The translations under genes were made by a program, and so were the position numbers. A stretch of 19,724 nucleotides of DNA from Bdellovibrio sp. (GTDB lineage Bacteria > Myxococcota > SpSt-1050): assembly GCA_020725805.1 (NCBI GenBank), contig DYEF01000081.1, positions 1 to 19,724 on the forward strand, read 5' to 3'. This document shows, piece after piece, positions 85 to 13,603 of this stretch (the stretch's first letter is position 1; every line of letters begins with the position of its first letter). The notes under the pieces were generated by a model that worked only from the letters and a program-made list of their open reading frames with translations, made no database searches and had not been told where the DNA came from.

Positions 85-282
85 TTGAATGAAATACAGA
101 TTAAATTTTTATTCTCCTGCTGGATTAATCCTGATTTTTTACCAGAGAAACACTAAAAAAACATTACATCGCAAAATGCTTAAACCAGATAATTATTTCT
201 GCTCTGTTCATTTTTTATTGCTTTGTCATTTCAAAAATAATATAGATTATTTTACCTTATTTTTAAGAGGAGGAATACTATT
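85..282. other. AT-rich leader upstream of the thiolase/DUF35 cluster
   Basis: No convincing gene is seen. A 65-codon open frame runs through (89-286) but lacks a ribosome binding site and looks like AT-rich noise. The region holds a candidate promoter (218-246) and a strong ribosome binding site, GAGGAGG, at about 267-273 for the first thiolase-like gene. Confidence 0.55.
218..246 (+). promoter_or_regulatory. candidate sigma70-type promoter for the thiolase/DUF35 operon
   Basis: TTGCTT (218-223), a 17-base spacer, then TATAGA (241-246). The spacing is ideal and each box matches consensus at four or five positions. It lies about 36 bases before the first start codon. Such boxes are easy to find in AT-rich DNA, so this is tentative. 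Confidence 0.35.
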
Positions 283-1434
283 ATGAACAACAGAGTCGGA
301 ATTATTGGTATAGGATGTACAGGTTTTAAACCTGTGAGTCCTGATGTCAGTTACCGCGAACTGATATTTGAAGCTGCTCAGAAGGCATATACTGAGGCCG
401 GACTTCATCCAAAAGAGATTGACTCATTTATTTCTGCTACCGAGGATTTTATCGAGGGTTATTCTATTGCCGATGAATATGTACCTGACCAGCTTGGTGC
501 TGTTATGAAGTCAGTTCATACCGTGACTGCCGATTTCTTACAGGCACTCGGTGTCGGATATATGATGGTTAAGACTGGACAATTCAAGACCATTGCGATA
601 GAGGGACATTCAAAGGTATCCAATATTGAGACACTCGATGAGGTTATGGCATTTGCCCTGGATCCGATATACATCAGACCTCTTAAGGAAAATGCCGATT
701 TTATAGCAGGTCTTGAGATGAGAAGATTTCTCGAGAGAACAGGGAATACAGAGGAGCAGTGTGCATCTGTCGTTGTAAAGAACAGAAAAAATGCCCTAAA
801 TAATCCTTATGCAGGATATGGTGCGATATTCAATGAATCAGATGTGCTGAACAGCGAACCGATTTCTCTCCCTTTAAAACAACTGGATAAGGCACAGACA
901 TCCGACGGGGCTGTGGTCTGTGTGATAGCAGAGGAGAGTACAGCTAAGTCTCTTTGCAAAAATCCTGTCTGGATAGACGGAATTATGTGGTACTCGGATA
1001 ATGCAAATGTCTGGTCAAGGTGTATGAGCGAGGCAAACTATATAAAACTTGCAGCAAAAAAGGCCTACGAGATGGCAGGCATTAAAAATCCTGTCAAGGA
1101 TACACAGTTTGCGGAGGTCTGTGATGAATATTCATTCAAGGAACTGCAGCATCTGGAGGCACTTGGTATAGCCAGAAGAGGTGAGGCCGGATTTCTGACA
1201 GCAAACGGATTTACTGCACTCGACGGAGTATATCCGGTCAATCCGTCAGGAGGGTCTCTTGGTGTAGGGCATACATTTGAGGCATCCGGGGGTATGAAGG
1301 TTTTTGAGGCAGTAATGCAGCTCAGGGGTGAGGCCGGTAAAAGACAGGTAAAGAATGCCAGAAGAGGAATAGTCCAGATCTACAGAGGCGTTCCTACTTC
1401 AACCGGGGCCGTTGCTGTATTATCAAACGAGTAA
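283..1434 (+). CDS. thiolase-fold protein (SCP-x/archaeal type) lacking the cysteine nucleophile, paralog 1
   Basis: A 383-residue thiolase-superfamily protein of the SCP-x/archaeal acetyl-CoA acetyltransferase type. Family landmarks are present: an N-terminal VGIIGIGCTGF strand-loop, KNRKNALNNP near 166-175, the SDGA loop at 207-210, CDEYSFKE near 280-287 in place of the NEAF-type loop, and NPSGGSLGVGH ending in His330. The segment that normally reads N-A-C-A-S-G reads V-T-A-D-F-L (81-86), so the acyl-accepting cysteine appears replaced by Asp84. The C-terminal CxG cysteine is also absent (QIYRGVPTSTG). Ordinary ping-pong thiolysis is therefore unlikely; in this fold, Cys-less members such as Ltp2 act as retro-aldolases with DUF35 partners. 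The start has an excellent SD, GAGGAGG, 9 bases upstream. It is the first of four closely spaced genes. Substrate unknown. Confidence 0.85.
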   Translation: MNNRVGIIGIGCTGFKPVSPDVSYRELIFEAAQKAYTEAGLHPKEIDSFISATEDFIEGYSIADEYVPDQLGAVMKSVHTVTADFLQALGVGYMMVKTGQFKTIAIEGHSKVSNIETLDEVMAFALDPIYIRPLKENADFIAGLEMRRFLERTGNTEEQCASVVVKNRKNALNNPYAGYGAIFNESDVLNSEPISLPLKQLDKAQTSDGAVVCVIAEESTAKSLCKNPVWIDGIMWYSDNANVWSRCMSEANYIKLAAKKAYEMAGIKNPVKDTQFAEVCDEYSFKELQHLEALGIARRGEAGFLTANGFTALDGVYPVNPSGGSLGVGHTFEASGGMKVFEAVMQLRGEAGKRQVKNARRGIVQIYRGVPTSTGAVAVLSNE

Positions 1435-1451
1435 GAGAGGAGGATTAGAAT

Positions 1452-2615
1452 ATGGGTATGAGAAAAGTTGCTATAGTAGGTGCAGGAATCACTAAGTTTG
1501 TCAGAAGGGCACAGGAGACCGGACCTGAGCTTGCATATCAGGCTTCCAAAATGGCACTCGATTCCTGCGGCTTAAAACTCAAGGATATAGAAATGATTAC
1601 TTTAGGGACCGCGCCAGATGCCTTCGATGGTGTTCATATGAAGGGAGAATACCTTCTCGGCGGTGCCGGAGGTAATAAAAAACCCTATATCAGGAATTTC
1701 GTAGGTGGCGGAACAGGAGTCTTTGCCCCTATTCACGGCTGGATGCACGTTGCCTCCGGTATGTGCGACCTCTGTATGGTCGTCTGTGAAGAGAAGATGT
1801 CGAGCTGTCATCCGCATCCGCAGGGAGCATTTCTGACCATATTCGACCACACGACTGAACAGCCGATTAAGCCTACACTGATATGGATCTTTGCACTCGA
1901 GATGAAAAGGTATATGGAGACTTACGGGTTGAAACCGGAGGATGTTGCAAGAGTGGCTGTCAAGAACAAGAAGAATGCCCTCGACCATCCGTCTGCACAG
2001 GTAGCAGAGGAACTGACGGTTGAGGACATTGTAAATTCAGAAGTACTTGCTGACCCTGTTCACAGACTTGATATCAGTCCGGCTTCGGACGGAGCAGCAG
2101 CCGTAATTCTTGCATCAGAACACGTTGCAAAGAGGCTGACGGATAAACCGGTATGGATTGAGGGAGTTGGCTGGAATCTGGATACAGCGTACTGGGCGAC
2201 AAAGGATCTGTACTATCCGAGATATGTAGAGAAGGCAGCAAGAATGGCCTATGATATGGCCGGAATCAAGGAGCCTCACAAGGAGATTCAGGTTGCAGAG
2301 CCTTATGACCCGTTTGACTATAAAGAGCTTCATCATATGGAAGGACTGCTGCTCTGCGAGAGAGGAGAGGCGGCAAGACTTACAGCCGAAGGATATACGG
2401 CAAGAGACGGAAACCTGCCGATTTGTCCGTCCGGTGGTGCTCTTGGTGTGGGCAATCCAATCGCTGCCACAGGTCTGATGAAGGTCATTGAGATATTCCT
2501 GCAGTTAAGAGGGGAGGCCGGGAAACGTCAGGTTCCGGGTAATCCGAGAGTCGGACTTGCCCAGGCTTGGGGAGACCTGATGCAGGTAGGAACAGTTATT
2601 GTACTAAAAAGATAG
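1452..2615 (+). CDS. thiolase-fold protein lacking both cysteine and catalytic histidine, paralog 2
   Basis: A 387-residue paralog of the preceding gene. The two share the KPVWI-x-G-(V/I)-x-W segment, GEA-rich loops, and the C-terminal LRGEAGKRQV. The nucleophile region reads VGGGTG (84-89), with Gly86 where cysteine is expected, and the GHPxGATG motif reads GNPIAATG (334-341), so the histidine is replaced by Asn335. The terminal CxG cysteine is missing (QAWGDLMQVG). With neither cysteine nor histidine, this is probably a structural or substrate-binding partner of paralog 1, or the lyase subunit of a mixed complex. The start follows GAGAGGAGG with about 9 bases spacing, 17 bases after the previous stop. 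A member of the family normally runs 380-400 residues, so length is complete. Substrate and reaction cannot be read from the sequence. Confidence 0.85.
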   Translation: MGMRKVAIVGAGITKFVRRAQETGPELAYQASKMALDSCGLKLKDIEMITLGTAPDAFDGVHMKGEYLLGGAGGNKKPYIRNFVGGGTGVFAPIHGWMHVASGMCDLCMVVCEEKMSSCHPHPQGAFLTIFDHTTEQPIKPTLIWIFALEMKRYMETYGLKPEDVARVAVKNKKNALDHPSAQVAEELTVEDIVNSEVLADPVHRLDISPASDGAAAVILASEHVAKRLTDKPVWIEGVGWNLDTAYWATKDLYYPRYVEKAARMAYDMAGIKEPHKEIQVAEPYDPFDYKELHHMEGLLLCERGEAARLTAEGYTARDGNLPICPSGGALGVGNPIAATGLMKVIEIFLQLRGEAGKRQVPGNPRVGLAQAWGDLMQVGTVIVLKR

Positions 2616-2624
2616 GAGGCAAAA

Positions 2625-3173
2625 ATGAAGATAGATAAAGTTCCTGTAAAGGGATTATCAAGCAAAGAATACGAGAAGGCCTTAAAGATTAGCTGGGACC
2701 CTGTTTTGAAGTACAACTGGGACAACGGAAAGGCCATCGGAAGATATCTGCACGAACTCAAAAAAGGCAGAATCATTGCCAGAGTATGTGATAAATGCAA
2801 CCGCATAATGATTCCGCCCCGTATGTTCTGTGAATACTGTTTCAGACCGACTGACAGATGGCAGTATGTCAAGGATACTGGGAAAGTAAATACATTTGCG
2901 GTCTCAAGGGTCTACTGGAATGCCCAGAGAATACCGCAGGGTGAGCCGCCGATAATACCGGCAGTAATTGAAATAGATGGTGCGAGCGAAGGTATGGGAC
3001 TTCTGCACCTTCTCGGGAATGTCGAGCCTGAAGACATTAAAATCGGGATGAAGGTAAGAGCGGTATGGAAACCCGAGAACGAAAGAACCGGCTCGATTAC
3101 CGATATTCTTTATTTCGAACCTGTAAGAGAGAAAAATCCGCCGAAGGCAAAACCAGCGGCCAAGAGGAGGTAA
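2625..3173 (+). CDS. DUF35 OB-fold protein with zinc ribbon, paralog 1
   Basis: 182 residues. A zinc ribbon is formed by Cys55-x2-Cys58 and Cys69-x2-Cys72 (RVCDKCN ... RMFCEYCF), preceded by an N-terminal helical extension and followed by an OB-fold domain with the usual DUF35 ending, KIGMKVRAVWKPENERTGSITDI (139-161). The last residues are Lys/Pro-rich (KAKPAAKRR). DUF35 proteins bind and stabilise thiolase-fold enzymes, as in BbsA with BbsB, ChsH2 with Ltp2, and archaeal thiolase/HMG-CoA synthase complexes, often shaping the acyl-CoA channel. The start follows an AGGAGG ribosome site that lies just past the upstream stop. Assignment to the family is firm; the partner is inferred from adjacency. 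Confidence 0.85.
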   Translation: MKIDKVPVKGLSSKEYEKALKISWDPVLKYNWDNGKAIGRYLHELKKGRIIARVCDKCNRIMIPPRMFCEYCFRPTDRWQYVKDTGKVNTFAVSRVYWNAQRIPQGEPPIIPAVIEIDGASEGMGLLHLLGNVEPEDIKIGMKVRAVWKPENERTGSITDILYFEPVREKNPPKAKPAAKRR

Positions 3174-3179
3174 GAAACA

Positions 3180-3644
3180 ATGTATAAGGAGAAACTCGAA
3201 AAGAATATAGAGTGTGGTTCATTCCCGGGTCAGATTCCTGTAAATTATGTCTATACATTAGGCATCGCCGGAGACGAATTCTTCCGGACCATCAGGGATA
3301 AAGGTTATTTTATAGCGAGTAAATGCTCCTGCGGCAAAAAATATATTCCTGCACAGATGTACTGTGATGAATGTTTCGGAGAGTGCAAGGAATATGTAAA
3401 GGTCGGTACAGAAGGTGAATTGTACTCCTATACAGAATGTTATTATGATTACAGGGGTAACAAATATGATGAGCCTCATCTTCTGGGACTCGTTAAATTC
3501 AGGGATTGTGAAGGTGGGATTATCCACAGACTCAAGATAAACAAGGACGAAATCAGAATCGGCATGAAAGTTGAGGCGGTTTTTAAGCCACAGAAACAGA
3601 GAACGGGCTCGGTGGAAGATATTCTGTATTTTAAGAAAAAGTAA
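3180..3644 (+). CDS. DUF35 OB-fold protein with zinc ribbon, paralog 2
   Basis: 154 residues with a zinc ribbon of Cys49, Cys51, Cys62 and Cys65 (KCSCGKKY ... MYCDECF), then an OB-fold domain ending in RIGMKVEAVFKPQKQRTGSVEDI. The first knuckle is CxC instead of the CxxC seen in the preceding paralog, a small departure in metal-site spacing. The start is preceded by AGAGGAGGTAA, which overlaps the stop of the upstream gene, so translation is probably coupled. As the last of the four genes it gives two DUF35 proteins for two thiolase-fold proteins, which suggests one specific partner each or a mixed assembly. Confidence 0.82.
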   Translation: MYKEKLEKNIECGSFPGQIPVNYVYTLGIAGDEFFRTIRDKGYFIASKCSCGKKYIPAQMYCDECFGECKEYVKVGTEGELYSYTECYYDYRGNKYDEPHLLGLVKFRDCEGGIIHRLKINKDEIRIGMKVEAVFKPQKQRTGSVEDILYFKKK

Positions 3645-5290: not shown

Positions 5291-6401
5291 ATGTCAAAGG
5301 AATTAAAGGAAAGGATAGAATCGCTGAACAGAAAACTATCGGACCTCAGAGGTTATCTTTGACACAGAAGGAAAAAAGAAGAGAATAGCGGAAATCGATA
5401 TGCTTATGTCCTCACAGGAATTCTGGCAGGATATTTCAAGGGCCTCCAAGATTCAGCAGGAGAGAAAGATACTGGATGAACTGCTCAAAGAGGATAAATT
5501 CTGTGAGACTCACATAGAAAATTCGAGAGAGTTGCTATCTATGGCATTGGAAAGCGGGGAAGAAGATGTCCTCGAATCAATAAGGAGAGACCTCGATGAG
5601 GTTGAAAATAAACTCTCTGAGATCGAGTTCAATCTGATTCTCTCAGAGCCCGTTGACAAAAGTGATGCGATTGTTTCTATAAATTCGGGAGCAGGCGGTA
5701 CAGAGTCTCAGGACTGGGTAAGTATGCTTCTGAGAATGTATCTCAGATGGGCGGAGGGGCGAGGATTCTCAACAGAGGTTGTTGACCAGCTTCCGGGCGA
5801 AGAGGCGGGACTGAAGAATGTCTTGTTTCTTGTGAAGGGTCCTTATGCCTATGGTTATATGAAGGCAGAGGTAGGTGTTCACAGACTTGTCAGAATTTCT
5901 CCCTTTGATGCAAATGCAAGAAGACACACATCATTTGCCTCTGTGGCTGTTATACCCGATGTGCCTGACGAGATAGTTATAGATATAAAGGATTCGGATC
6001 TGAGGATTGATGTATTCAGGGCGGGAGGTCACGGAGGACAGGGCGTGAATACGACAGATTCGGCTGTAAGGATAACCCATCTGCCTACAGGTATTGTTGT
6101 TCAGTGCCAGAACGAAAGAAGTCAGCACCAGAACAAGGCAACTGCGATGAAGATACTGAAGGCAAGACTATATGAAATTGAAATGAAAAAGCGTGAAGAG
6201 GAGATGGAAAAACTGCATAAGGAGAAGAAGAAGATAGAGTGGGGCTCCCAGATTCGCTCGTATGTACTTCAGCCATACAGACTTGTAAAAGACCACCGGA
6301 CAGGTTATGAGACAGGAAATGCGGATGCAGTCCTTGACGGGAATATTGATGAATTTATCAAACAGTATCTTCTGATGATGGCAAGAGAGAAAAACCAATG
6401 A
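5291..6401 (+). CDS. prfB: peptide chain release factor 2 (programmed +1 frameshift)
   Basis: Recognises UAA/UGA and triggers peptide release. Translation starts at ATG 5291 (GAGG 7 bases upstream, within the end of lnt) and runs 23 codons, ending LRGYL, to an in-frame TGA at 5360-5362. A +1 slip on CTT moves reading to GAC at 5361, continuing DTEGKKKRIAEID into the main frame and giving about 369 residues, close to E. coli RF2 (365). The codon-recognition tripeptide SPF lies at about 203-205 and the GGQ hydrolysis motif at about 248-250 of the shifted product. Calling the gene from ATG 5400 would lose the first 36 residues. It is cotranscribed with lnt. Confidence 0.95.
5345..5363 (+). promoter_or_regulatory. 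RF2 autoregulatory +1 frameshift site
   Basis: The sequence around the slip reads AGA GGT TAT CTT TGA C. GAGGT pairs with the 3' end of 16S rRNA and sits one codon before CTT, as in the classic AGG GGG TAT CTT TGA C site. Low RF2 leaves the UGA unread and promotes the shift, so RF2 sets its own level. The internal SD is weaker than the E. coli form. Confidence 0.92.
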
Positions 6402-8110: not shown

Positions 8111-9742
8111 ATGAAAATTGTCCCATCTTTATTAAAGATTATTATATTTGTTTACGTTGCTGCATTCATACATAAGGGATGCGGCGAGCAGAAAACGGAG
8201 GATAAGACAAATCCCTGTGATGGTGTTACCTGCAGCGGCAGGGGAGTCTGTGTGGTCAACAACAATGAACCTTCCTGTGTATGTAAGGAAGGGTATGAGA
8301 GTTCCGGACTTAAATGCATAAAGATATCATCTGATACGGGTGATGATTCGTTTTCTGATTCGGCAGACATTGAAGATACAGAGTCAGCAGATATTACGGA
8401 AAAAGATTCCGGCAATGAAGATATAAGGGATATTATTACCAGCGACCTTGGTGATACAGGGAAGACCTGCATTGATGAATGTAATACACCGGATTCGAGA
8501 ATCTGTGACGGAAATGACAGATTTAAGGTGTGCAAGGATTACAATTATGACGGTTGTTATGAGTGGGGTGAACCGCAGAAGTGCCCGAATAATTCAGTAT
8601 GCAAAGACGGTTTTTGTGACTGCGGGAATAATTTTCTGGACTGCAACGGCTCTTTTTACGACGGCTGTGAATCGAATATTATGGAAGATATCAATAATTG
8701 CGGGAAGTGCGAGAAGAGCTGTCTCGTGGATAATGCCTCTGTGAGATGCAATAAAGGGAAATGTGAACTGGCTGATTGTCTCCCGGGCTGGGGGAACTGT
8801 GATAAGGTTTTCGAGACAGGCTGTGAATCGAATTTATATTATGATGACAATAACTGTGGTTTTTGCGGAAACATATGCGGATTCCAGTCGGTATGCAATA
8901 TGGGAAAATGTGTATGTAATTACGGATTTGGCGACTGCAACGAAACTCAGTCTGACGGTTGTGAGACGAAAATACTAAGTGATAATAGTCATTGCGGAAA
9001 GTGCAACAATAAATGTGGCTTAAACTCGGTTTGCTCAAACGGAGAATGTGTCTGTAAGGACAACTGGGGGGATTGTAACAAGGATAAGACTGATGGTTGT
9101 GAGACAGATTTGCTTTCAAATAACAAACATTGCGGAGCGTGTAATTCAGTATGCGGACTGCATTCGTCCTGTAATCAGGGATTCTGCAAATGTGAACAAT
9201 ACTGGGGAAACTGCAATGATGATTTTTATGACGGCTGTGAGGTATATCTGTATAACGACAACAGCAACTGCGGGGAGTGTAGATTCAAATGCGGTCCGAA
9301 TGCTACCTGTGAATATGGTCAGTGCAAGTGCACCTACGGATGGGGAAACTGCAATGGTTTTTGGGATGATGGGTGCGAAAAAGATATCCTCCACGACAAT
9401 AACAACTGCGGCGAATGCTGGAAGAGCTGCGGATATAAGGCCTGGTGCAATAACGGACAATGTGTATGTGAATGGAATTTTGGCAATTGCAATGATAGCT
9501 GGAAGGACGGTTGTGAAACAGACCTGAATAATACAAATATACATTGCGGAAAGTGCTGGAATAATTGCGGACCAAATGCCTATTGCCAGAACGCACAATG
9601 CAAATGTAATGACTGTTATGCAGATTGTGATACATATCAGGGGTGTGAAACCGAAATATGTTATAACAATGCAAGGTGTGGTTCCTGTTACAAATCCTGT
9701 AATCCCGATGAATACTGCAGTTATAAACAGTGTGTGAAATAA
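8111..9742 (+). CDS. exported EGF-like/cysteine-repeat protein with 46-residue tandem units
   Basis: 543 residues. The N-terminal hydrophobic stretch (about 6-20) followed by HKGC24 suggests export, possibly as a lipoprotein, though the lipobox is poor. Next comes one EGF-like domain (Cys36, 41, 47, 56, 58, 69), then an Asp/Ser-rich linker (73-118), a transitional Cys-rich segment (120-226), and six exact 46-residue units starting at 227, 273, 319, 365, 411 and 457, with a shortened last unit from 503. Each unit follows (W/F)G(D/N)C....DGCE..L..(D/N)N..CG.C...CG....C..G.C.C, about eight cysteines each. Such proteins are typical of the surface or outer membrane in Myxococcota-like bacteria and depend on disulfide formation. 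Function is unknown; adhesion or calcium-dependent scaffolding are possibilities. AGGAG and a strong promoter precede it. Confidence 0.85.
   Translation: MKIVPSLLKIIIFVYVAAFIHKGCGEQKTEDKTNPCDGVTCSGRGVCVVNNNEPSCVCKEGYESSGLKCIKISSDTGDDSFSDSADIEDTESADITEKDSGNEDIRDIITSDLGDTGKTCIDECNTPDSRICDGNDRFKVCKDYNYDGCYEWGEPQKCPNNSVCKDGFCDCGNNFLDCNGSFYDGCESNIMEDINNCGKCEKSCLVDNASVRCNKGKCELADCLPGWGNCDKVFETGCESNLYYDDNNCGFCGNICGFQSVCNMGKCVCNYGFGDCNETQSDGCETKILSDNSHCGKCNNKCGLNSVCSNGECVCKDNWGDCNKDKTDGCETDLLSNNKHCGACNSVCGLHSSCNQGFCKCEQYWGNCNDDFYDGCEVYLYNDNSNCGECRFKCGPNATCEYGQCKCTYGWGNCNGFWDDGCEKDILHDNNNCGECWKSCGYKAWCNNGQCVCEWNFGNCNDSWKDGCETDLNNTNIHCGKCWNNCGPNAYCQNAQCKCNDCYADCDTYQGCETEICYNNARCGSCYKSCNPDEYCSYKQCVK
8789..9739 (+). 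repeat. 138-bp tandem coding repeats (46-residue cysteine units)
   Basis: Six consecutive units of exactly 138 bp start at about 8789, 8927, 9065, 9203, 9341 and 9479, with a shorter final one from about 9617. The proteins align without gaps, yet the DNA copies differ at many positions, so the array is old rather than freshly amplified. An upstream segment (about 8621-8786) is a more diverged, irregular copy. Confidence 0.85.
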
Positions 9743-11138: not shown

Positions 11139-11564
11139 TCATTCTGCTATAAAATCGAAAATGATTTCTGCCTTTTTTGGTTCGCATATAGAAGAGGTGC
11201 ATACCACAAAAGAGAGGTCTCCTTTTACCTGAAAACTGCCGCTTTTCTTAGGAGTAAGTCTGCCCGTAAAGACCGGTTTCTTTATATTCCTGTTTAAGAG
11301 GTCTTCTTTTGTATAAAGCTCCTTTTCAAATTCCACATCGGTATAACCTTCTTTGTCGAATCTGAGTTTTACAGGTGCCTCGACCTCCATTTCAAAACCG
11401 TCTGTCGGAATAATCTCTATTCTGAATTCAGCAGGACTGCCCGATTTAACCCGTTCGGTGATGGATTTCTTTATGATATAATGGTCAGGCGAGGTCAGTC
11501 TTTCACCGGATTTACAACAGATAAAAAGAAGAAGTATCAGTAATGCAAAATATCTCTTCTTCAT
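11139..11564 (-). CDS. small exported protein with DsbD N-terminal-like CxxxxC domain
   Basis: 141 residues. A signal-like segment LLILLLFICC (8-17) may be a lipoprotein signal, with Cys16 or Cys17 as the lipid site, although the lipobox is atypical. The rest looks like a beta-sandwich (EFRIEIIP, VKLRFDKEGY, TGRLTPKKSGSFQVKGDLSF) ending in VVCTSSICEPKKAEI with Cys122 and Cys127. That ending resembles the redox-active pair of the DsbD N-terminal domain (C-x5-C followed by P), which accepts electrons from the DsbD transmembrane part. The ATG overlaps the upstream oxidoreductase stop as ATGA, so translation is coupled. No transmembrane DsbD domain is encoded here. A redox role outside the cytoplasm is inferred. 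Confidence 0.65.
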   Translation of the reverse strand: MKKRYFALLILLLFICCKSGERLTSPDHYIIKKSITERVKSGSPAEFRIEIIPTDGFEMEVEAPVKLRFDKEGYTDVEFEKELYTKEDLLNRNIKKPVFTGRLTPKKSGSFQVKGDLSFVVCTSSICEPKKAEIIFDFIAE

Positions 11565-13603
11565 TTTCTAACCTCACAGAGTCTGTTGATTTCGGTTGCC
11601 GTATTATGTCCGTCTTTTATGGCATTTGTGATATTTGACGGCCTTCTGGCATCACCGATGACGAAATATCTGATGTCATCACGACCTTTAAGGATATTTT
11701 CGAGTTTGTTATTCGGCTTTGCCCCCATTGCCAGAACGACTGTATGTGCAGGGAAGAATTCCTCTTTGCCGTCTACCTCCGCATAAACCCCTTCCTTATC
11801 AATCCTGACAACCTTTGCCTTCGGGACAAATTTTACACCAAGTCTTTTGAGCGAAGATAGGATAATCCATCTCGTTGATTTACCGACGTCCCTGCCGAAT
11901 TTCTCATCCATATCGAGGATCGTTATTTTGCGTGTTGTCTGTGTTGCAAGCCTTTTGATTTCCTCGAGGGGCAGAGCCTCGTATTCTATCAAAAATTTCG
12001 TCATCTCAGGTGGCAGGGTATCGCTTGAGGCAATAAAATGTGCTGTATCGAGACCAACCCCGTTACCTCCGACTATTACAACCTCATTTCCGTAAGGTCT
12101 TCTCTTTGTGAGAACGAATCGGGCAAGTACTGAATTTTCGTTTATTGCGTAGGGGATATCCGGTATGAACTGAACCGAGCCTGTTGCAAGTATAATAAAA
12201 TCATAGTGATTTCTGTCCAGCTCATCCAGATCGAACCGTTTGTTAAGAAGGAGGTTTATACTCAGTTTTTCGATCATATACTGGTAGTATTTTACCAGCC
12301 TCCTGTAGTCGTCCTTTCCGGGGGCTGCACTTGCATCAATCAGCTGACCTCCGATATAACCGTTTTCCTCGTAGATAGTAACGGTGTGACCTGCCTTCGA
12401 GAGGTTTATTGCACACTCGAGACCTGCAACTCCGGCACCTATTACGGCAATATTTTTCGGGTCAATCTCACCGGTCTTCTCCTTTTGTCCCTCATTTCCG
12501 GCAAGCGGGTTTACAGTACACCCTACAGGAAGTCCGTTGAATACATTGTCGAGACATTCCTGATTGCAGGCAATACAGGGACGTATTTCGCTCTGTCTTT
12601 TGTGATAGACCTTGACCGGCATTTCCGGGTCTGCAATCAGTTGTCTGCCGAAATTGATAATGTCGGCATATCCGTGAGCAATCAGACTTTCTGCATCATC
12701 TATCTCATTTATTCTGTTCGAAAGAAAGACCGGAATTTTTACATTATCTTTTACCATTTTGGAGAGGAACCTGAAACCTGCCGGAGGAAGATGTCCTGTT
12801 ATCTGCGGTACCTGTGATTCGTGCCAGCCGCCGGTAACGTTGATGGCATCGACACCGCATTCTTCGTATAGTTTTGCGATTTCGACCATATCCTGAAAAC
12901 CGGAAGAGCCGGGCATAAAATCATATCCGCTCATTCTGATAATCAGGGGAAAATCCTTCCCCACGGCACTACGGGTATTTTCTATAACCATTCTAGCAAA
13001 TCTGAATCTGTTTTCGAAACTTCCCCCGAATCTGTCCGTCCTCTTGTTTGTAAGAGGGGAGAGAAACTGACATATCAGATAACCCGCAGAGGCAATAATC
13101 TCGACTCCGTCATAACCCGCCTTCTTTGCCCTGTTTGCCGCCTGTGCATAGGCATTTATAACCATCTCTATATCCTTTTCGGTCATCTCCTCAGGCATAA
13201 CCCCGGTGAGTCTGGAAGGAATAGGGGAGGGTGCCAGTACCCTCTTGCCGAAAAGGAATGAATGTGAATATCTGCCTGCGTGATATAACTGGGCAAATAC
13301 CTTCGTCTCGGTTTTGTGTATCTTCTCACAGAAACTTCTGTGGCTTTCGATTTTTGAATCATCCTCCAGACTTATCATAAGAGGACCTGCGCCGGTATCA
13401 TCAATGGCACAACCTCCTACAATAATCAGGCCTGTTTTGTTCTTTGCCCTCTCGTAGTAAAAATCCGTAACCTGCTGAGTTATGTTACCGTCAGGTGTCA
13501 TATTAAGATGGAGAGCGGGCATACTTATACGGTTCTTTAACTGACACCTGTTGATGAAAATGGGAGTCAGAAGAAGCTGGGATTTCGTAAGATAAAATGA
13601 CAT
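11561..13603 (-). CDS. FadH-type 2,4-dienoyl-CoA reductase / Old Yellow Enzyme oxidoreductase
   Basis: 680 residues, matching the FadH family (about 670). An FMN-binding TIM barrel (about 8-340) has SAGYLICQFLSPLTNKRTDRFGGS (172-195) and NVTGGWHES (255-263); by comparison with E. coli FadH, Tyr175 and His261 are the catalytic pair. Four cysteines for a 4Fe-4S cluster follow: Cys343, Cys346, Cys350 and Cys362 (CIACNQEC ... GCTVNP). The C-terminal FAD/NAD(P)H part has GAGVAGLE (389-396) and GGNGVGLD (512-519) nucleotide-binding loops. The enzyme would move hydride from NAD(P)H through FAD, Fe-S and FMN to an enoate or dienoyl-CoA. A GGAGG site 6 bases before ATG supports the start; a 9-bp dyad overlaps it. 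Exact substrate is not certain, as related trimethylamine-dehydrogenase-like enzymes share this architecture. Confidence 0.9.
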   Translation of the reverse strand: MSFYLTKSQLLLTPIFINRCQLKNRISMPALHLNMTPDGNITQQVTDFYYERAKNKTGLIIVGGCAIDDTGAGPLMISLEDDSKIESHRSFCEKIHKTETKVFAQLYHAGRYSHSFLFGKRVLAPSPIPSRLTGVMPEEMTEKDIEMVINAYAQAANRAKKAGYDGVEIIASAGYLICQFLSPLTNKRTDRFGGSFENRFRFARMVIENTRSAVGKDFPLIIRMSGYDFMPGSSGFQDMVEIAKLYEECGVDAINVTGGWHESQVPQITGHLPPAGFRFLSKMVKDNVKIPVFLSNRINEIDDAESLIAHGYADIINFGRQLIADPEMPVKVYHKRQSEIRPCIACNQECLDNVFNGLPVGCTVNPLAGNEGQKEKTGEIDPKNIAVIGAGVAGLECAINLSKAGHTVTIYEENGYIGGQLIDASAAPGKDDYRRLVKYYQYMIEKLSINLLLNKRFDLDELDRNHYDFIILATGSVQFIPDIPYAINENSVLARFVLTKRRPYGNEVVIVGGNGVGLDTAHFIASSDTLPPEMTKFLIEYEALPLEEIKRLATQTTRKITILDMDEKFGRDVGKSTRWIILSSLKRLGVKFVPKAKVVRIDKEGVYAEVDGKEEFFPAHTVVLAMGAKPNNKLENILKGRDDIRYFVIGDARRPSNITNAIKDGHNTATEINRLCEVRK

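Follow-up and report, generated by a model that had tools for sequence, protein, structure and literature searches.

What reaction is carried out by two thiolase-like proteins in which the catalytic cysteine is missing is the question raised by four consecutive genes at the start of contig DYEF01000081.1 (Bdellovibrio sp., GenBank assembly GCA_020725805.1). This contig of 19,724 nucleotides, referred to here as the window, is one whole contig of a 3.29-Mb draft genome. The genes, here called A, B, D1 and D2, encode two thiolase-fold paralogs (A and B) followed by two DUF35 proteins (D1 and D2). The reading proposed here, to which a probability of about 0.45 is given, is that this quartet is a hetero-oligomeric carbon–carbon lyase that depends on coenzyme A (CoA) thioesters and in which B is the catalytic chain.

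The composition of the gene set is as described in the initial annotation. The four open reading frames (ORFs) are separated by 6–17 bp on the same strand, and Shine–Dalgarno-like sites precede all of them, in line with the strong ribosome sites reported earlier (Table 1). Pfam Thiolase_C_1 matches both large ORFs (4e-32 for A and 2e-33 for B), which places them in the thiolase superfamily; they share 38% identity, and a search of the genome using A as the query returned A and B only. B passes the NCBIfam model PRK06065 (634.9 bits, cut-off 455), and the closest model to A is PRK06066, which it does not pass (465.1 bits, cut-off 516). Both models are 'thiolase domain-containing protein' entries without an assigned function, and databases call both large chains thiolase or acetyl-CoA acetyltransferase. 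PF01796 was found in D1 and D2, PF12172 in D1 and a ChsH2-type oligonucleotide/oligosaccharide-binding (OB) domain in both. In the AlphaFold models (mean predicted local distance difference test scores of 89 for A and 81 for B), a full thiolase fold is predicted along the whole of each chain. The top structural matches of both models were DUF35-partnered thiolase-fold enzymes, led by 6esq for A (Z 55.9, root-mean-square deviation 1.6 Å over 377 residues) and likewise for B (Z 49.5, 2.2 Å over 376 residues).

Profile alignment of B to 7yvy and 6esq placed Gly86 opposite the nucleophilic cysteine, Tyr285 opposite the histidine of the HDCF motif and Asn335 opposite the histidine of the GHP motif, in agreement with the earlier assignment of Gly86 and Asn335. 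The second catalytic cysteine, in the CxG loop, is replaced by Trp373-Gly-Asp. Gly86, Tyr285, Asp286, Pro287, Phe288 and Asn335 are identical in all 81 B sequences, and Tyr285 and Asn335 are kept in all 15 further archaeal B rows. Furthermore, His294, His295 and, nearly, Trp373-Gly-Asp-Leu-Met-Gln are almost invariant across these 81 sequences and across nearly all 15 archaeal rows, and the pocket motifs GGGTG, EPYDPF, KELHH, PSGG, GNP and WGDLMQ are near-invariant from bacteria to archaea. Because the B pocket is near-invariant and the GHP-site histidine of A, His330, is often lost, B rather than A is likely to be the catalytic chain.

The nucleophile site of A had been assigned to Asp84, a placement that is probably wrong by two residues. 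Profile alignments to 6esq and 7yvy, a phmmer alignment to 6hsj and an A-to-B profile all put residue 82 (Thr82) opposite the nucleophilic cysteine and Asp84 opposite the serine of C-A-S-G, and the 17-residue spacing to the conserved glycine that ends the next helix agrees with this placement; the strand and helix limits of the A model alone do not decide between residues 82 and 84. Asp84 was therefore rejected as the nucleophile equivalent in favor of the more likely Thr82. With Thr82 in A and Gly86 in B, neither chain has a cysteine at the nucleophile site in the profile alignments, and the earlier claim that both are nucleophile-less stands; the CxG-loop cysteine of A is likewise replaced, by Tyr367-Arg-Gly. 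Among 76 relatives of A, residue 82 is Pro in 38, Ser in 13, Thr in nine, Ala in seven, Gly in five and Cys in four, and residue 84 is Asp or Glu in every one. Residue 330 is His in 41 and Asn in 25 of 77 sequences, with other residues in the archaeal rows.

Scanning named genomes with the B alignment gave 275 relatives, the best 80 of which were analyzed as loci. The complete set A-B-D1-D2 occurs in the same order in 72 of the 80, and the remaining eight end at a contig boundary; the conserved quartet sought in this survey is thus present beyond chance. The record titles of these loci name Spirochaetota, Krumholzibacteriota, Actinomycetota, Chloroflexota, Deltaproteobacteria, Syntrophaceae, Planctomycetota, Zixibacteria, SAR324 and Bathyarchaeota, among others. 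B is also present in 42 of 200 genomes from the phylum of one Bathyarchaeota genome, and A adjoins B in most of the regions read from this phylum, usually together with the DUF35 genes. In a tree, A and B form separate clades that each span bacteria and archaea, the A fork being less well supported, and because of this separation the pair is judged either to be old or to have travelled together. In the genomes G006 and G044, both from the phylum of the window, B, D1 and D2 are a single ORF of 733–735 residues adjoining A, a fusion because of which A, B, D1 and D2 very likely form one complex. SSO2064 (3irb) aligned end to end (E 3e-81) with D2 of a Sulfolobales-type quartet (L164); SSO2064 thus appears to be the orthologue of the D2 proteins.

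Two related arrangements were also observed. Locus L021, in genome G006, contains a second, divergent quartet-like set of an A-like ORF, a B-like ORF in which the tyrosine is kept and SNP replaces GHP, and two DUF35 ORFs, adjoining an enoyl-CoA hydratase-like ORF; because of this set, the quartet architecture may extend to a wider superfamily. In four Bathyarchaeota loci (L090, L098, L099 and L101), a divergent PRK06064-type thiolase and a DUF35 gene lie back to back with the quartet.

Within an A-B-D1-D2 complex, B would most likely act as a Tyr-based acyl-CoA aldolase or retro-aldolase. In Ltp2, the YDHF motif supplies Tyr294 as the base that removes the β-hydroxyl proton, and the acid is a second tyrosine, Tyr344, located 50 residues on; in Sal, the essential tyrosine is Tyr302 of YDCY, with Gln352 at the second site (PMC12329534). 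The catalytic tyrosine of this Y-D-x-F/Y motif occupies the site of B Tyr285 (Y285-D-P-F in 81 of 81 sequences). Sites 285 and 335 of B, which match the HDCF and GHP histidines of thiolases, are also 50 residues apart; their match to the Ltp2 sites comes from alignments to other thiolases and published numbering rather than from a residue alignment to 6ok1. Because B has a tyrosine and an asparagine at these two sites, cysteine-free, Tyr-based chemistry at the C2–C3 bond is most likely. A and B would associate in the manner of the two subunits of a thiolase dimer, and D1 and D2 would cap them like the DUF35 subunits of Ltp2–ChsH2 and Sal–Shy. An acyl-cysteine intermediate would be impossible. 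Tyr285 would be the base acting on the β-hydroxyl of a 3-hydroxyacyl-CoA, the thioester enolate would be held by Asn335 together with the GGG loop, and the C2–C3 bond would be broken, or formed in the reverse direction, yielding an acyl-CoA along with an aldehyde or ketone. A would be a largely non-catalytic partner that retains the acidic Asp84 beside the old nucleophile site. The heteromeric acyl-CoA lyase or aldolase of putative 2 + 2 stoichiometry suggested in the initial annotation is still the best reading, given a quartet that is universal in the retrieved set, the fusion, the absence of the nucleophile and the tyrosine of B; the part that favored the His-bearing A as the catalyst is probably wrong, His330 not being conserved.

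The neighbors of the quartet point to the turnover of short branched acyl-CoAs, and the survey for adjacent acyl-CoA genes that had been suggested did recover them. A split B12 mutase adjoins the quartet in Desulfobacterota-type metagenome-assembled genomes, in one Bdellovibrio-like metagenome-assembled genome and in Bathyarchaeota, accompanied in several cases by adenosyltransferase and MeaB. An acyl-CoA dehydrogenase cluster was found in 30 of the 80 loci, and Sulfolobales-type regions contain acetate–CoA-ligase-like enzymes, with indolepyruvate oxidoreductase in one. The quartet-adjacent mutase has Phe/Gln where methylmalonyl-CoA mutase has Tyr/Arg, which rules out the latter enzyme as the adjacent partner; isobutyryl-CoA mutase has the same substrate-side Phe/Gln pair. 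Some loci carry a Tyr/Arg mutase and a carboxylase further downstream of the Phe/Gln mutase. At L054:6472-8151 the quartet-adjacent mutase has ETGLSIAFHYPT near the active site, where the Tyr/Arg mutase of L054 has QTGLSVAFDLPT. The sole mutase match in the genome of the window is of the Phe/Gln type and lies on another contig with its small subunit, an adenosyltransferase and a 3-hydroxybutyryl-CoA dehydrogenase. Among 146 genomes of the phylum, all five that have the quartet carry the close mutase subclade, which is present in about 12–14 of the 146 (p about 2e-6); because this value is uncorrected for shared ancestry and another subclade of Phe/Gln mutases is common in the phylum, the co-occurrence is weakly suggestive of a link. 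Given that acyl-CoA dehydrogenase and an isobutyryl-CoA-mutase-like adenosylcobalamin-dependent mutase accompany the set, the probable substrates would be short branched acyl-CoAs, namely 3-hydroxyisobutyryl-, 2-methyl-3-hydroxybutyryl- or 3-hydroxyisovaleryl-CoA. A cluster of the same kind, with mutase, adenosyltransferase and MeaB, has been reported for the syntrophic breakdown of isobutyrate by Syntrophothermus, and the available part of that source does not mention the quartet with it (PMC5017805). A more far-reaching idea, in which a cross-domain, four-subunit, cysteine-free acyl-CoA lyase with a Y-D-P-F and G-N-P pocket works with the isobutyryl-CoA-mutase-like B12 enzyme as part of a branched-chain acyl-CoA pathway, so far undescribed, in anaerobes and archaea, is tentative, with the odds against it.

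Several observations weigh against a B-catalyzed lyase acting on such substrates. The third motif residue, which is His in Ltp2 and an essential Cys in Sal, is Pro287 in all 81 B sequences, and the second-site residue, Tyr in Ltp2 and Gln in Sal, is Asn335 in B; the acid/base set therefore differs and, judged by these residues, B falls outside the Ltp2 and Sal types as these are defined. In addition, A has near-invariant residues of its own (Asp/Glu84, Glu278, Asp281, Lys286 and Arg368) and may therefore contribute to catalysis as well. An enoyl-CoA hydratase is not consistently adjacent to the quartet. In the Sulfolobales-type regions read, the quartet has no mutase beside it, and a search of the genome of a close Spirochaetota relative detected none.

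In some thiolase-fold enzymes, residues of one protomer reach the site of the other. This favors a putative site shared across the A–B interface, for example with a carboxylate of A in the B pocket, or catalysis by both chains, in a reaction other than a simple retro-aldol; each chain having near-invariant residues of its own, this alternative is credible enough to be kept in view, if rather unlikely. That A is catalytic through His330 and the conserved acidic Asp84, with B as its partner, fits the Asp or Glu at residue 84 in all 76 relatives, and two A relatives (L024 and L049) have Cys82 together with the GHP histidine, so that a thiolase site may be partly retained in some A chains. However, the histidine is kept in little more than half of the sequences and the archaeal rows have other residues in its place, the HDCF-equivalent site is variable in A and A is evolving faster than B, which makes A improbable as the sole catalyst.

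About equally improbable is that the quartet is a non-catalytic CoA-binding scaffold joining other acyl-CoA enzymes, such as the mutase and the dehydrogenase. The thiolase nucleophile is indeed absent from both chains, and DUF35 proteins are scaffolds in the archaeal thiolase/3-hydroxy-3-methylglutaryl-CoA (HMG-CoA) synthase complex (PMC12329534), but the constancy of the B pocket across bacteria and archaea argues for chemistry, and in one genome searched the quartet is present without a detected mutase. A conventional thiolase system, for acetoacetyl-CoA or 3-ketoacyl-CoA, that had been misread through alignment would fit the database labels of both chains and the 3-hydroxybutyryl-CoA and acyl-CoA dehydrogenases near the mutase. 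It is nevertheless very improbable: A and B of the window have no cysteine at either catalytic site according to the profile alignments, and Gly86 and Asn335 are constant in B.

In many uncultured bacteria and archaea, as well as in Sulfolobus acidocaldarius, genes labeled thiolase or acetyl-CoA acetyltransferase are probably unable to act as thiolases, and metabolic models that use these genes for acetoacetyl-CoA or β-oxidation would be in error. If the true reaction were named, an acyl-CoA lyase that works without cysteine would be defined, and this may close a gap in the metabolism of branched-chain acyl-CoAs. Because Sulfolobus can be manipulated genetically, the question is directly testable.

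Table 1. Positions of the quartet, its putative ribosome sites and other features in the window.
Feature	Position	Strand	Remarks
A, thiolase-fold subunit, 383 residues	283..1434	+	Closest to NCBIfam PRK06066; Thr82 at nucleophile site, His330 at GHP site
B, thiolase-fold subunit, 387 residues	1452..2615	+	NCBIfam PRK06065; Gly86, Tyr285-Asp-Pro-Phe at HDCF site, Asn335 at GHP site
D1, DUF35 protein, 182 residues	2625..3173	+	Zinc ribbon and OB fold; Cys55, 58, 69 and 72 conserved
D2, DUF35 protein, 154 residues	3180..3644	+	Cys49, 51, 62 and 65 conserved; best solved relative SSO2064 (3irb)
Shine–Dalgarno-like site of A	267..274	+	GAGGAGGA, upstream of A; read from sequence
Shine–Dalgarno-like site of B	1437-1444	+	Similar; read from sequence
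Shine–Dalgarno-like site of D1	2614-2619	+	Similar; read from sequence
Shine–Dalgarno-like site of D2	3164-3170	+	Similar; read from sequence
prfB (release factor 2)	5291-6401		Classic programmed +1 frameshift: ATG at 5291, 23 codons, then CTT TGA C, joining the downstream frame
Lipoprotein-like ORF, 521 residues	6432-7997		No Pfam match
Cys-rich protein, probably secreted	8111-9742		Many NCGxC/CGxxC-type repeats
Enoate-reductase-type protein (flavin mononucleotide/flavin adenine dinucleotide)	11561-13603		BaiCD/mycofactocin old yellow enzyme family, below cut-offs

Among characterized systems, Ltp2–ChsH2 (6ok1) and Sal–Shy (9myr) resemble the quartet in combining a thiolase fold that lacks the nucleophilic cysteine with a DUF35 partner. 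However, they have one aldolase chain and one DUF35 domain tethered to a hydratase, whereas the quartet comprises a pair of thiolase-fold chains and a pair of free DUF35 proteins, and no hydratase adjoins it. The benzoylsuccinyl-CoA thiolase BbsA–BbsB (7pxp) also pairs a thiolase-fold chain with a DUF35 partner, but it has one chain of each instead of two and is named a thiolase; the scores against the NCBIfam BbsB model (97.7 bits for A and 133.3 for B, of 750) and BbsA model (29 of 250 for D2) fall far below the cut-offs. The PhlABC acyltransferase (5m3k) shares with the quartet two thiolase-superfamily chains, one of which is taken as inactive, and a DUF35 protein (PMC2954200), whereas its PhlC is catalytically active and it has one DUF35 protein instead of two. 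6esq, the nearest solved fold for A and B alike, is in contrast a Cys-bearing thiolase, which one DUF35 protein links to HMG-CoA synthase. The PRK06065 and PRK06066 models and the available part of the 2010 SSO2064 (3irb) structure paper give no account of a four-gene unit or of missing nucleophiles. A literature search, with most subscription journals outside its coverage, found no functional study of the quartet, of PRK06065/06066 or of SSO2061–2064, consistent with the earlier remark that no characterized four-gene version was recognized. The protein families of the quartet are known, without a function assigned to them in the available sources, and by its sequences the quartet appears to belong with the thiolase-fold/DUF35 systems.

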